From: Phytoactinopolyspora alkaliphila
GTDB lineage: Bacteria > Actinomycetota > Actinomycetes > Jiangellales > Jiangellaceae
Direction: 5' to 3'
Assembly (NCBI RefSeq): GCF_010550695.1
Contig: NZ_JAAGOB010000010.1
Span: forward strand, 158,789-222,788
DNA: 64,000 nt
The notes beneath the pieces are model-generated. The model ran no database searches, was not told the origin of the DNA, and saw only the letters and a program-made list of their open reading frames with translations. A program made the position numbers and the translations under genes. Position 1 is the stretch's first letter; each line of letters begins with the position of its first letter. Below are positions 1,228-58,119 of this stretch, in pieces.

Positions 1228-1311
1228 CCAGGCATGCCAGGGGTTGGGGTCGTTGAAAACGGACAAATCGGGCCGCGGAGCGACCACAACCCATGCCAGG
1301 GGTTGTGGTCG
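1228..1311. repeat. Palindromic repeat family 1, copy A
   Basis: An imperfect long inverted repeat whose arms contain GGCATGCCAGGGGTTGGGGTCG-like and CGACCACAACCCATGCCAGG sequences, flanking a core with ACGGACAAATCGGGC. The right half (1281-1311) is itself an 11-bp perfect inverted repeat, CGACCACAACC / GGTTGTGGTCG, around CATGCCAGG. The reverse complement aligns over its whole length with copies at 12157-12228 and 57026-57102, including the core GCCCGA(A/T)(A/T)TGTCC. It sits between the binding-protein stop and the permease. The permease frame stays open through it, so an upstream start would wrongly translate repeat DNA. Confidence 0.8.
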
Positions 1312-6052: not shown

Positions 6053-6108
6053 CGCATAGACGAGCGGCCCGCCCCGGAAGGATCCGGGGCGGGCCGCTCG
6101 TCTATGCG
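6053..6108 (-). terminator. Strong hairpin terminator behind the wall-anchored protease gene
   Basis: A perfect 25-bp inverted repeat (6053-6077 and 6084-6108) with a 6-nt loop AAGGAT. It lies 30 bp beyond the stop of the gene read on the minus strand. There is no T-tract, which is common for actinobacterial terminators. It would also block transcription coming the other way. Confidence 0.8.
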
Positions 6109-12156: not shown

Positions 12157-12228
12157 CCCTTGGCATGGGTTGTGGTCGTGATCGCGCCCGAAATGTCCGT
12201 TTCCAGCGACCACAGCCCATGCCAAGGG
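12157..12228. repeat. Palindromic repeat family 1, copy B
   Basis: The cleanest copy of the family: 22-bp arms (12157-12178 and 12207-12228) with one mismatch, beginning CCCTTGGCATGGGTTGTGG and ending CCCATGCCAAGGG, around a 28-nt centre that includes GCCCGAAATGTCCGTTT. It lies between the divergent map and XRE genes. From the position of a minus-strand TATAGT (12244-12249) it would be transcribed in the map leader and fold about 30 nt before the start codon. Confidence 0.85.
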
Positions 12229-15633: not shown

Positions 15634-15664
15634 CGGGCTCTCGCGCCCCCGCGCCCCTCTTCCA

Positions 15665-15750
15665 AATGATCATGTAAACCATGTTTTCTCGTGCTTCACC
15701 ATGCCTGCAGACCTGGTGAAGCACGAGAAAACATGGTTTACATGATCATT
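15665..15750. repeat. Palindromic repeat family 2, copy A (perfect 37-bp arms)
   Basis: A perfect inverted repeat: 15665-15701 and 15714-15750 are exact reverse complements, with a 12-nt centre TGCCTGCAGACC. The arms start AATGATCATGTAAACCATG and include TTTTCTCGTGCTTCACCA; they are much more AT-rich than the surroundings. A second copy with the same centre is at 33233-33338. It lies just beyond lysA and may serve as a terminator or mRNA stabiliser. Confidence 0.9.
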
Positions 15751-15855
15751 CCGGGGCGGGCCGTGTTGGGGATTTGCGCTCTGGGCGTACGCGGGACTGG
15801 TGCGCAGCGCGTCCGGCGTTATCCCGTCATTTCCGACGTTGCGGAGGTGGCGGCG

Positions 15856-20121: not shown

Positions 20122-20138
20122 TCAGCGCGCCCTCGCGC

Positions 20139-20262
20139 CATCTGGAAGCTTGTGGCGGTTGCGCCTTGGCCATGCGGACGCTTGTGGTCGCCTGGGTGCT
20201 ATCTGGAAGCTTGCGGCGTTGGTGCCTGACTACATGGAAGCTCGTGGACGGTGTGCCATTCC
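20139..20262. repeat. Four imperfect ~31-bp tandem repeats
   Basis: Four units starting at about 20139, 20171, 20200 and 20233 share CAT(C)TGGAAGCTTGTGGCGG followed by a T/G-rich tail ending in GCC. Periods are 32, 29 and 33 bp. Units 1 and 3 keep ATCTGGAAGCTTG exactly. They fill the gap between the SIS gene and the ROK promoter and contain no gene. Confidence 0.7.
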
Positions 20263-33232: not shown

Positions 33233-33338
33233 CCCGCCCCTAAATGATCATGTAAACCATGTCTTCTCGTGCTTCACCATGCCTGCAGACCTGGTGATGC
33301 ACGAGAAAACATGGTTTACATGATCATTTAGGGGCGGG
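33233..33338. repeat. Palindromic repeat family 2, copy B (47-bp arms)
   Basis: Arms 33233-33279 and 33292-33338 pair with two mismatches around the same 12-nt centre TGCCTGCAGACC as in copy A at 15665. The outermost bases CCCGCCCC / GGGGCGGG extend the stem beyond that of copy A. It begins 3 bp behind the stop of the DUF58 gene (minus strand). Confidence 0.9.
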
Positions 33339-55624: not shown

Positions 55625-57025
55625 ATGGGTGCCACAGACCGGATCCAGTTGCTCACGGCGGTGAGCGACGCCGACGAGGATGCCAGGCTCATCGGGGCGC
55701 TGGAGAGCAGCCCGGGCCGGTTCGTCGTGGCTCGCCGCTGCGTCGACGTCGCGGACCTGCTGGCCGCGGTGGGTGCCGGCCTCGGCCAAGCCGTCCTCGT
55801 CACGGCGAGCTTGCGCCGGTTGGATCGGGACGCGGTCAGCAGGCTGCACAACGCGCCGGTCGCCGTGATCGGTGTCGTGCCCTCGGGCGACTCCGCCGGT
55901 GAACGTGAACGACTGGCCGCGCTGGGGATTCGCACGGTGGTCTCCCTCGTGGCGCCTCCGTCGGAGCTGGCCGATGCCGTGACCACGGCCATCGCCGAGG
56001 CCGGCGGTGGCCCGGGGCCAGATGCCTTGCCGGTGTTCGGAACGGCTGACCGGGATCGCATCAAGGACATGATGCGCGCCGGGGGTTCCTTGCGGCTCGA
56101 CGACGATCAAGCGGACACCCTGCGTTTCATCGAGCGTGGAGGTCAGAACGGCAGGCTGGTCGCGGTTTGGGGCCCATGCGGCGCTCCGGGCCGCACCACC
56201 CTCGCGGTCAACATCGCGATGGAGGCGTCGCTCGCCGGCGAGTCGACGATCCTGGCCGATGCCGATACCTACGGTGCCTCGGTAGCGCAGAGCCTGGGCC
56301 TGCTGGACGAGGCTCCGGGGCTGGCCGGCGTGGCGCGGGTCGCGAACAACGGGCAGCTCGATCCGATCTCGCTGGCCCGCTACGCCCGGCGGATCACCGC
56401 GAACCTGCACGTGCTGACCGGGATAGGGCGGCCGGCGCGGTGGACCGAACTGCGGCCGTCGGCGTTGTCGGCCGTGTGGGAGCAGACCCGATCCGTGGCC
56501 GCCACCACCGTCGTGGACTGTGGGTTCGGCGTGGAGGAGGACGAACTGCTCAGCTATGACACCGAGGCACCCCAGCGCAACGGCGCCACGCGCGCCACTC
56601 TGCGCTCCGCCGACCTGGTCGTCGCTGTCGGCTCGGCTGATCCTGTGGGGCTGGGGCGCCTGGTCCGCGGACTGGACGACCTGACGGACGTGTACGGTGA
56701 TGCGTCTCCGCCCGGGATCAAGGTGGTGGTCAACCGGGTCCGGCGTTCGGTCGCCGGTCCGGATCCGCAACGGCAGATCACCGAGGCGCTGCTCCGGTAC
56801 GCCTCGGTGGAGCCGTTCGGGTTCGTGCCGGACGACCCAGCCGCGCTGGATGCGGCCCTGCTCCAGGGACAGGCGCTCGCCGAGATCGCCCCGCGGTCGG
56901 CGGCCCGCCGAGCGGTCGCGGAACTCACCCGCCGGCTCCTCGGCGCCGAGGCTGAGACCGATACCGGCGCCAAGGCTGTCCGATCCGCCGCGGCGCCCCG
57001 CGGGATCGCGCGCCTCCGACACTAG
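55625..57025 (+). CDS. CpaE-like / MinD-ParA-type ATPase with variant P-loop
   Basis: A 466-residue protein. The N-terminal ~150 residues form a receiver-like domain (RIQLLTAVSDADEDARLIGA; GIRTVVSLVAPPSELADAV), as in CpaE. The deviant Walker A motif reads GPCGAPGRTT (183-192), with Arg190 where MinD/ParA proteins have Lys; the signature lysine is absent as well. Walker-B-like VVDCGFG follows around 298. CpaE positions pilus secretion machinery at a pole; the role here with the SAF protein is unknown. A family-1 palindromic repeat begins right at the stop. Confidence 0.85.
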   Translation: MGATDRIQLLTAVSDADEDARLIGALESSPGRFVVARRCVDVADLLAAVGAGLGQAVLVTASLRRLDRDAVSRLHNAPVAVIGVVPSGDSAGERERLAALGIRTVVSLVAPPSELADAVTTAIAEAGGGPGPDALPVFGTADRDRIKDMMRAGGSLRLDDDQADTLRFIERGGQNGRLVAVWGPCGAPGRTTLAVNIAMEASLAGESTILADADTYGASVAQSLGLLDEAPGLAGVARVANNGQLDPISLARYARRITANLHVLTGIGRPARWTELRPSALSAVWEQTRSVAATTVVDCGFGVEEDELLSYDTEAPQRNGATRATLRSADLVVAVGSADPVGLGRLVRGLDDLTDVYGDASPPGIKVVVNRVRRSVAGPDPQRQITEALLRYASVEPFGFVPDDPAALDAALLQGQALAEIAPRSAARRAVAELTRRLLGAEAETDTGAKAVRSAAAPRGIARLRH

Positions 57026-57102
57026 CCACAACCCCTGGCATGGGTTGTGGTCGTCGGGGCGCCCGATATGTCCCTTGACAGCGACCACAACCCCAGCGAA
57101 GG
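57026..57102. repeat. Palindromic repeat family 1, copy C
   Basis: Starts at the base after the CpaE-like stop codon. The left arm CCCTGGCATGGGTTGTGGTCG (57033-57053) pairs with CGACCACAACCCCAGCGAAGG (57082-57102) imperfectly at its far end; the core GCGCCCGATATGTCCCTTGACAG matches copies A and B. An extra inner repeat, CCACAACCC / GGGTTGTGG (57026-57050), is like that in copy A. Confidence 0.78.
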
Positions 57103-57141
57103 CTTCGTGCAAAGCGGCGAAGATTCTTGCACACTGAAGAG

Positions 57142-58119
57142 ATGGAACTTCCGCGTGACACGGCGTCCGGCCGCCGGCGAGGCTTGGTCCTCGGCAGCGG
57201 AGGGCTGTTGGGCGCGGCATGGACCGTGGGCGCGCTCACGGCACTGGAAGAGTCGACCGGGGTGGACATGCGCGCGGTCGACTATCTCGCCGGGACGTCG
57301 GCAGGTTCCGTGACGGCCGCGATGCTCGGGGCCGGAGTGAGCGTCGAGCAGCTGCGGCTGCACCAGCTCGGCCAGGGAACCGACGGCCCGCTGGCCGAGA
57401 TGACCTGGGACTACGACCACGCCACCGGGGGCTCCCGGCCGCGTCGCCCGCGGCTGACCGCGGGCTCGCCCGGCATGGTGGCCCGCAATGTCCGCCGGCT
57501 GCGCAAGATGCCGCCTACGGCCGTGCTCGCGGCGTTCCTGCCCGAGGGCCGGACCGACTTGAGCAGCATCGGGGAGCTCGTCAGGTCGGTGACCCCGGGC
57601 GGCGGGTGGTCACCGCACCCGGGGGTGTGGATTGTGACGATGGATTATGACTCCGGCCGCCGGGTCCCGTTCGGCCGGGCGGGAGCGCCCGAGGCCGAGC
57701 TGGCCGACGCGGTCATGGCGTCGTGCTCGATACCGGGGTGGTTTACGCCGGTGGTCATCGACGGCCGCCGGTACATCGACGGTGCGGCGTGCTCGGCCAC
57801 GTCGGCAGACCTGCTGGCCGGCCTGGAACTCGACGAGGTCTACATCGTGGCACCCAGTGTGTCGTTCGAGACCGATCGTCCGAGGGCACTGTTGCCGCGG
57901 GTAGAGCGCGCCTGGCGCACTCGGGTGACGAGGCGGTGCGTCCGCGAAGCCGCGAAGCTTCGCGCTGAGGGGACCGAGGTCACGATTCTCGGCCCGGGCC
58001 CGGATGACCTGGCACAGATCGGCGGGAACGTCATGGACGCCAAACGCCGGCTGAAAGTCCTCGAGACGTCGGTGCGCACATCTGCGGCTGCCCTGACCTC
58101 CGGATCCACAGCAGCCTGA
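57142..58119 (+). CDS. Patatin-like phospholipase
   Basis: Lipid acyl hydrolase of about 325 residues. The glycine-rich oxyanion segment LVLGSGGLLGAAW (16-28) is followed by the nucleophile elbow GTSAGS with Ser53, and the catalytic Asp213 in IDGAACS (usual DG[G/A]). No signal peptide or membrane helix, so it is probably cytoplasmic or peripheral. ATG 57142 is taken as start, though TTG 57127 is in frame and a good ribosome binding site is lacking for both. The gene lies between the CpaE-like ATPase (with a repeat in between) and the P5C dehydrogenase; no functional link is evident. Confidence 0.9.
   Translation: MELPRDTASGRRRGLVLGSGGLLGAAWTVGALTALEESTGVDMRAVDYLAGTSAGSVTAAMLGAGVSVEQLRLHQLGQGTDGPLAEMTWDYDHATGGSRPRRPRLTAGSPGMVARNVRRLRKMPPTAVLAAFLPEGRTDLSSIGELVRSVTPGGGWSPHPGVWIVTMDYDSGRRVPFGRAGAPEAELADAVMASCSIPGWFTPVVIDGRRYIDGAACSATSADLLAGLELDEVYIVAPSVSFETDRPRALLPRVERAWRTRVTRRCVREAAKLRAEGTEVTILGPGPDDLAQIGGNVMDAKRRLKVLETSVRTSAAALTSGSTAA

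Follow-up and report, generated by a model that had tools for sequence, protein, structure and literature searches.

A dispersed 72-nucleotide palindrome with a conserved, possibly BldC-binding core at gene 3′ ends in Phytoactinopolyspora alkaliphila and its relatives

The stretch of DNA considered here, called the window throughout, comprises 64,000 nucleotides of the genome of Phytoactinopolyspora alkaliphila (G000:C2:158789-222788, G000 being the source genome). It carries three copies of one palindromic repeat family, as an earlier sequence-only reading had proposed, and all three were recovered both with a covariance model, R1, and with an nhmmer profile built from 45 copies of this genome, the three of the window among them. 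By the profile, copies 1, 2 and 3 lie at 1233-1301, 12157-12228 and 57032-57102, with E values of 2.8e-17, 5.5e-20 and 6.9e-16 in the 864 kb scanned, i.e., 400 kb of contig C12, 200 kb each of C23 and C32, and the window. Copy 1 (R1 match at 1231..1302, plus strand by core orientation; G000:C2:160019-160090) follows a plus-strand gene that ends at 1188 and, named by eye, looks like a transporter substrate-binding protein, and it precedes the next plus-strand gene, which is permease-like; its left arm is decayed and its core reads GAAAACGGACAAATCGGGC. Copy 2 (12157..12228, minus strand) is the best in the window, with 22-nt arms, CCCTTGGCATGGGTTGTGGTCG and its inverted counterpart, around a 28-nt centre (22/28/22), and it separates divergent genes that start at about 12127 (minus) and 12269 (plus). 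Its core (12186..12203, minus strand) consists, when read on the minus strand, of two 9-bp head-to-tail repeats, GAAACGGAC and ATTTCGGGC, which sequence comparison marks as a candidate BldC-type site. Copy 3 (R1 match at 57032..57103, minus strand; G000:C2:215820-215891) has one decayed arm and begins 6 nt past the stop codon of a plus-strand gene ending at 57025, and the plus-strand gene 3′ of it was called at 57184, with a possible ATG at 57141.

Copy 2 folds into a clean long hairpin (-56.5 kcal/mol, z -5.5), while copies 1 and 3 (z -1.1 and -2.6) have lost the long hairpin and form a local one in one arm instead. Terminator calling gave no U-tract terminator at copy 1, 2 or 3, and a terminator at copy 2 makes little sense because that copy lies between divergent genes. 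The sequence-only reading recognised no described family, and the repeat does appear to be undescribed: at gathering score, Rfam gave only a tRNA in the window, a relaxed scan of the site returned eight sub-threshold matches, seven of them miRNA precursors, and a known RNA family was rejected for want of a match above gathering score; in the literature searched, judged by title or abstract start, no published description of the repeat was found.

The window also holds other repeats. A second family of long, almost perfect palindromes, AATGATCATGTAAACCATGTTTTCTCGTGCTTCACCATGCCTG... and some 86-110 nt in length, lies at 15655-15760 and 33233-33338 and has nine copies in the 864 kb of the source genome; a third family, CCATGATCATTGRCGATCGC..., observed on contigs C32 and C12 (L313-L320 and L283-L302), has at least five copies in the same 864 kb. 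In the window again, at 6053-6108, a strong plain hairpin between two genes is made by an inverted repeat of 26 bp, perfect and with a loop of 4 nt, and at 20128-20227 an intergenic gap contains two imperfect 39-nt repeats whose starts are 61 nt apart.

In the 5.5-Mb genome, the 72-nt element occupies at least 45 distinct places, roughly one per 120 kb, so that the high genome-wide number anticipated from three copies amounts to about 45. R1 scored the best 150 of 2401 first-look candidates, which makes its counts lower bounds, and its matches number at least 88 because most copies were matched on both strands. A profile scan of the 864 kb with filters off gave 17 full copies, all of them already known, and two weak fragments. 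The layout is that of two 22-nt inverted arms flanking an asymmetric 28-nt core; the consensus of the 45 copies is CcCcTGGCATGGGTTgtGGTCgctgaAA.CGGAcAttTCGGgCgc..tagCGACC.cAACCCATGCCAgGGG, and the 23 copies chosen for the first alignment have a mean column identity of 83% over 72 nt. Beyond the 72 nt, the flanks of the source genome's copies are often complementary in a locus-specific manner (e.g., L024, L019, L060 and L010): agreement between outer left and outer right is 3.16 of 6 against 2.65 ± 0.15 in permutations (P 0.0005), and the flank duplex energy is -21.5 against -19.3 (P 0.0005). The inner arm positions covary weakly (P 0.042). The idea that each arm is a self-contained mini-hairpin, as in a REPIN, is unsupported, since outer and inner arm of the same side agree with P 0.096 and the outer left pairs with the outer right.

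The repeat favours gene 3′ ends. The 45 copies lie in 17 convergent, 24 co-directional and 4 divergent gaps, copy 2 of the window being one of these last four, against a background of 72 convergent, 262 co-directional and 123 divergent among all 457 gaps measuring 60-1000 nt within the 864 kb, copy-holding gaps included (chi-square P 2.5e-4; convergent versus divergent, Fisher P 1.2e-4); genes were called by our own codon-usage script and named by eye. The median distance is 20 nt to stop codons and 64 nt to starts. Both core orientations occur, and the orientation, which the sequence-only reading had singled out for checking, is indifferent in co-directional gaps, with the core running with the genes in 11 and against them in 13. 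The copies thus have the location of REP-type repeats, mainly downstream of genes and rarely in divergent gaps. That reading had called them a dispersed mobile-like or REP-like element rather than three independent terminators; a dispersed, REP-like family, as against three unrelated hairpins, is borne out, and the preference for 3′ ends speaks against setting terminators aside. Among Jiangella loci, 24 are convergent, 24 co-directional and 5 divergent (53 classified of 59 tried; counts without a background). There, 10 of 72 gene 3′ ends overlap by 2-6 nt with the element as bounded in that genus, and the TGA within the arm motif GTTGATC was read directly as the stop codon of the gene in L332, L335 and L337.

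Relatives of the element are absent from a plain nucleotide search of 39 other genomes, and for that reason a covariance model was needed; R1 has matches in at least 9 of 22 other genomes. Part of these matches, in the congeners G001, G002 and G004, are palindromes with similar inner arms and no core, and G004 also has a core-bearing copy (L391). In G001, palindromes of the type ATCGTCAGTGGGTTGTGGTCG... (L039, L053 and L096-L102) have inner arms like those of the element and varied loops, mostly without the core; the loops of L101 and L102 are very short and that of L096 is core-like. In Jiangella, the core and the 22-28-22 layout recur under other arms, GTTGATCTTGGAG...CTCCAAGATCAAC, most listed units being 72 nt long; G012 and G015 also have this core between arms of a third type, GCCTTGGCAAGGCTGGTCGTCG.

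The string CGGRCAWWTCGGRC is common to the centres of three consensuses: that of the 45 copies of the source genome, that of 50 GTTGATC copies (Jiangella, with at least one from G011), and that of 31 rows chosen on CCTTGGC plus the core, which include four rows of the source genome (L001, L008, L011 and L016). In the pooled alignment A3, the core aligns gap-free under all arm types. Its exact form occurs 27 times in G012 and 22 times in G015, against none for the reversed core, which as a control gave one match in 40 genomes; the 13 exact sites listed in the source genome all lie inside known copies. By reading, 58 of 60 fetched loci, chosen by exact core, are palindromic, L209 being one-sided and L244 not palindromic, with the limit that the crude pairing score of L244 (15/24) equals that of three loci counted as palindromic.

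The arms, in turn, change in a compensatory way. Over 46 sequences, 88.7% of cells remain paired and 338 double changes are counted, which, given the common ancestry of the arm subfamilies, are not independent events; arm covariation is 0.778 against 0.237 when shuffled and at most 0.218 when slid, and within the GTTGATC set the inner 9-bp stem by itself reaches 0.514 against 0.202. In some loci (e.g., L208, L231 and L234) the inner arms are mismatched, with different arm subfamilies around one core. The core is conserved beneath changing arms, and across related genera it is shared more than the arms, which the sequence-only reading had no means of seeing. As to the flanks, those of 58 GTTGATC copies do not pair beyond composition (P 0.11), and a structured outer stem was rejected for this set on that ground; in both the source genome's and the GTTGATC copies, the flanks are rich in C on the left and in G on the right.

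The distribution of the family was followed with two further tools. A pattern of the outer boxes matched all 12 genomes of the Jiangella genus group, with 2 to 109 matches per genome, 109 in G016 and 97 in G015, some of these core-less; it gave two in one other genus of the family (G011), and none in the source genome, in four congeners or in the reversed control. It also catches a core-less family, GTTGATCATGGAG, of 60-61 nt: the four listed box matches of G017 are all core-less, and a core-bearing copy in that genome has arms of another type. Outside the family, one genome among those searched has three matches, and the single inspected copy lacks the core. The alignment A2 was chosen by exact outer boxes, so that box invariance in it is uninformative. 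The pooled model R2 (E 1e-4), which scored 25 candidates per genome and thus gives lower bounds, found matches in at least 22 of 197 genomes of the class, 14 of them Jiangellaceae and eight from six other families. Copies were read in two of these eight, G179 with GATCAAGAAGGAGTTGTTGCGG arms in a 22-28-22 layout and G033 with GCTCATGCATGAGC arms, and a further out-of-family copy was read in a Trebonia MAG. A 17-mer contig scan gave 29 stretches, mostly chance matches; R2 was convincing in L109, L131 and L128, which are two Jiangella rhizosphaerae contigs and the one Trebonia MAG, and weak in three other rows (E 0.013-0.03). Most inspected bare-core sites outside the family are not elements, and one, in G036, is a weak R2 match (E 0.004). 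The search of related genomes that the sequence-only reading had looked to is thus negative by plain comparison and positive by covariance model.

The presence of the element differs between species. Four Jiangella loci with the element in G021 were compared with their orthologous gaps, and all four are given here; G017 could not be usefully aligned. At L280, the element is absent in G013, and a short hairpin, CCACCCCC/GGGGGTGG, is present in G010. At L335, a different palindrome, CCCATGATCATCAATGATC..., occurs in G018 and G013, the sequence of G006 is unrelated, and the stretch is missing in G010. At L332, G018 and G010 (L364 and L365) have in common a third palindrome, whose arms measure about 24 bp; the gap is convergent, the centre of the palindrome long and asymmetric, and the G018 arms read GGTCGGCGGGCGGGGAACGCCGTC. 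At L243, about 200 bp including the element are missing in G018. In addition, the gpmA-phoU gap has a copy in the source genome and a plain hairpin in the congener G003. No clean empty site was found among the orthologous gaps compared. A terminator-like role of the repeat stays likely because of its preference for 3′ ends and because other hairpins and palindromes occur in related gaps. As separate observations, a palindrome similar to the CCATGATCATTGRCGATCGC family occupies the place of G021's element at one orthologous site, and the congener G001 carries a relative of the window's second palindrome family downstream of gpmA, away from phoU.

The core itself consists of two 9-mers placed head to tail, AAATCGGAC|ATTTCGGGC. 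In the available text of PMC5859096, BldC is described as a MerR-like protein that sits head to tail on 9-bp direct repeats and bends DNA strongly; its crystallised site is CAATTCGGACAATTCGGACA, with the rule AATTXXXX(C) and 9 bp per protomer, and some 500 species, actinomycetes included, are credited with BldC-like proteins. The core has the arrangement of a BldC operator, at least two 9-bp direct repeats of the AATTXXXX(C) type, and it resembles the operators of whiI and smeA as given there in having two such repeats, each an AT-rich 4-mer, CGGR and C, head to tail. It differs from them in that they are promoter sites with a degenerate consensus, for which the available text mentions no inverted-repeat setting, and the available text of PMC6428758 holds that BldC sites are not predictable from sequence. 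The consensus of the 45 copies agrees with CAATTCGGACAATTCGGACA at 15 of 20 positions (P 6e-4, 5000 shuffled motifs, uncorrected), a match that is post hoc, BldC having been proposed as a lead and then tested. Among single sequences, the Trebonia copy agrees at 16 of 20 (0 of 5000 shuffles), the G033 copy at 14 (P 0.002) and the G179 copy at 13 (P 0.011), again uncorrected; the Jiangella arm types match weakly, with 13 of 20 for a GTTGATC consensus from 17 of the 50 sequences (P 0.023) and 12 of 20 for one CCTTGGC copy (P 0.046), likewise uncorrected. The best match falls at the same offset in 41 of the 45 copies; a C stands at the ninth position in 71% of the 45 for the first repeat and in 93% for the second, and of the first four bases 3.3 and 3.9, respectively, are A or T. 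We hold the identity of the core as a BldC site to be somewhat more likely than not. A tblastn search for a BldC-like protein gave no match in about 16% of the source genome and the sampled loci, 70 phage pieces included.

The core also occurs in phage DNA. Its 16-mer has 71 usable sites in IMG/VR contigs, 38 after removal of near-duplicates, and each of the two bases that precede it is an A in 31 and 30 of these 38 distinct sites, respectively, so that the 18-mer recurs there without the arms. The full element was found in none of 70 phage pieces; a partial match of 24 bits lies at the end of one contig. The recurrence of the core in these pieces without the whole element supports the view that the core is a protein site independent of the hairpin, and phages may have a BldC-type operator. 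Many AT-rich phage contigs (within L398-L467) carry ACAAATCGGACATTTCGGGCG, in several followed by ACTAT, and in several a TGTG...CACA motif precedes ACAAATCGGACATTTCGGGCG, as in a promoter region.

Among described systems, the closest in design is BIME-1 of E. coli, in which, by the available text of PMC2817692, the sequence between two inverted REPs binds IHF; the same text, with its reference Boccard and Prentki 1993, places RIBs at the 3′ ends of transcription units. The likeness lies in arms that are inverted palindromes, a centre bound, here by prediction, by a DNA-bending protein, a place at 3′ ends and dispersed copies; the repeat differs in lacking REP/GTAG units and a RAYT, in belonging to another phylum, and in a centre that appears BldC-like and not IHF-like. 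CGTC-tagged REPs (Di Nocera et al. 2013, PMC3733652) likewise have no known dedicated transposase and lie mainly between co-directional and convergent genes, but as far as the available text goes they have stems of 8-9 bp, loops of 4-5 nt and an unpaired CGTC tag, and the word "actinobacteria" does not occur in it. CGTC is present in the CCTTGGC arms, but within the paired stem. ERIC and similar repeats are also long, imperfect, intergenic palindromes, and are likened to it by description only.

The explanation we prefer, at a little under an even chance, is that the repeat is an actinobacterial analogue of BIME-1/RIB, a 3′-end hairpin around the site of a DNA-bending protein, with BldC in place of IHF. 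The arms would fold into a hairpin in the RNA, and in the DNA they might extrude a cruciform; in the source genome, often extended by the locus-specific complementary flanks, they would serve as the 3′-end hairpin of the neighbouring transcript or transcripts in either direction, acting in termination or 3′ protection. BldC on the loop-encoding core may mark or bend the DNA between transcription units, and the unit would spread between gene ends, its arms turning over and its core being kept. Of this, copy number, the 22-28-22 geometry, the bias to 3′ ends, both core orientations, the compensatory changes in the arms, the core kept beneath different arms and the differences in presence between species were observed; BldC binding, termination and mobility of the element are what we infer here. 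Still more tentatively, this may be part of an Actinobacteria-specific gene-end system, in which a changeable-arm 72-nt palindrome with a BldC-type core, spread across several families, would bring an architectural protein of the BldC family to where transcription units end, as a BldC-based counterpart of IHF-binding RIB/BIME-1, and its arms would be swapped for, or give way to, other palindromic cassettes at those gene ends.

Several rival explanations need to be weighed against this analogue of BIME-1/RIB. A somewhat unlikely one is that the element is a MITE, its 22-bp arms being terminal inverted repeats for a transposase encoded elsewhere in the genome, its place at 3′ ends reflecting that other insertions are harmful, and its likeness to BldC sites being coincidental or transposase-related. 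Like MITEs, it is short (72 nt), non-coding and dispersed, with inverted ends formed by the 22-nt arms and 45 similar units at unrelated sites; its presence and absence between species and the genes that run into it also suit a MITE, as do 4-nt flanking direct repeats in 2 of 45 copies of the source genome, where 0.25 are expected; among 75 GTTGATC copies there are 0. A test of lengths of 2-10 nt at offsets of 0-3 on each side (16 offset combinations), however, found nothing at 5-10 nt in these 45 and 75 copies, and at the best offset it found 2-nt repeats in 5 of the 45 (2.1 expected) and 10 of the 75 (4.1 expected), so that the target-site duplication which the sequence-only reading had suggested checking is not consistently there. 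No autonomous transposon with the same ends was found in the 864 kb, the neighbours of seven inspected copies look ordinary by eye, and MITEs keep their ends, whereas here the ends vary and the core is kept. Between the members of two close pairs of copies (G000:C12:619574/620306 and C32:31106/32034) lie a broken-looking ORF and a gene of ordinary appearance. A frame-broken minus-strand ORF between two copies, L013:1560-2240, may be of the AbiEi/DUF559 type. Movement by a RAYT (TnpA-REP) transposase, as for REPs and REPINs, would fit dispersed palindromes at gene 3′ ends, and we give it almost no credence: PF01797 (Y1_Tnp) is absent from 22 of 22 Jiangellaceae genomes at E 0.001, with a control positive in 5 of 14 known genomes, the consensus of the 45 copies has no GTAG foot, and the unit measures 72 nt against 20-50; as far as PF01797 goes, a RAYT-driven REP is refuted for the Jiangellaceae genomes examined. 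The mobile-like character seen by the sequence-only reading keeps its support from copy number and from differences between species, and finds none in a RAYT, a consistent target duplication or, in the 864 kb, an autonomous partner.

It is decidedly unlikely, in our judgement, that the copies are plain bidirectional hairpin terminators homogenised by gene conversion, with a core that has no role. The bias to 3′ ends, the pairing outer flanks of the source genome, the C-rich left and G-rich right flanks, and the simple hairpins at the G010 orthologous site and in the G003 gpmA-phoU gap all fit such terminators, but they leave aside a core that is conserved across genera beneath different arms, with two copies in other families, and that recurs in phage contigs without arms; a 28-nt loop and the missing U-tract call at the window copies are poor terminator features, and the GTTGATC outer flanks do not pair beyond composition. 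We regard as more improbable again the suggestion that the core is a helper site for a Xis/BldC-like protein in recombination, the arms being exchanged by a tyrosine recombinase or similar enzyme. BldC resembles Xis, and some of its relatives are annotated as resolvases or integrases in the available text of PMC5859096; arms of different subfamilies around one core and the same 18-mer in phage contigs would agree with this, against which stand the lack of a recombinase beside the seven inspected copies and of a BldC-like protein by tblastn in the loci sampled, the 70 phage pieces included.

Even without BldC, an apparently undescribed repeat family of Jiangellaceae is defined. If the analogy to BIME-1/RIB is true, BldC would have, in one genome, tens of predictable sites at gene ends and not at promoters, and its architectural role would become directly testable. 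The design of BIME-1/RIB would then have been invented a second time, independently, and the palindromes at the 3′ ends of genes would behave as replaceable cassettes.
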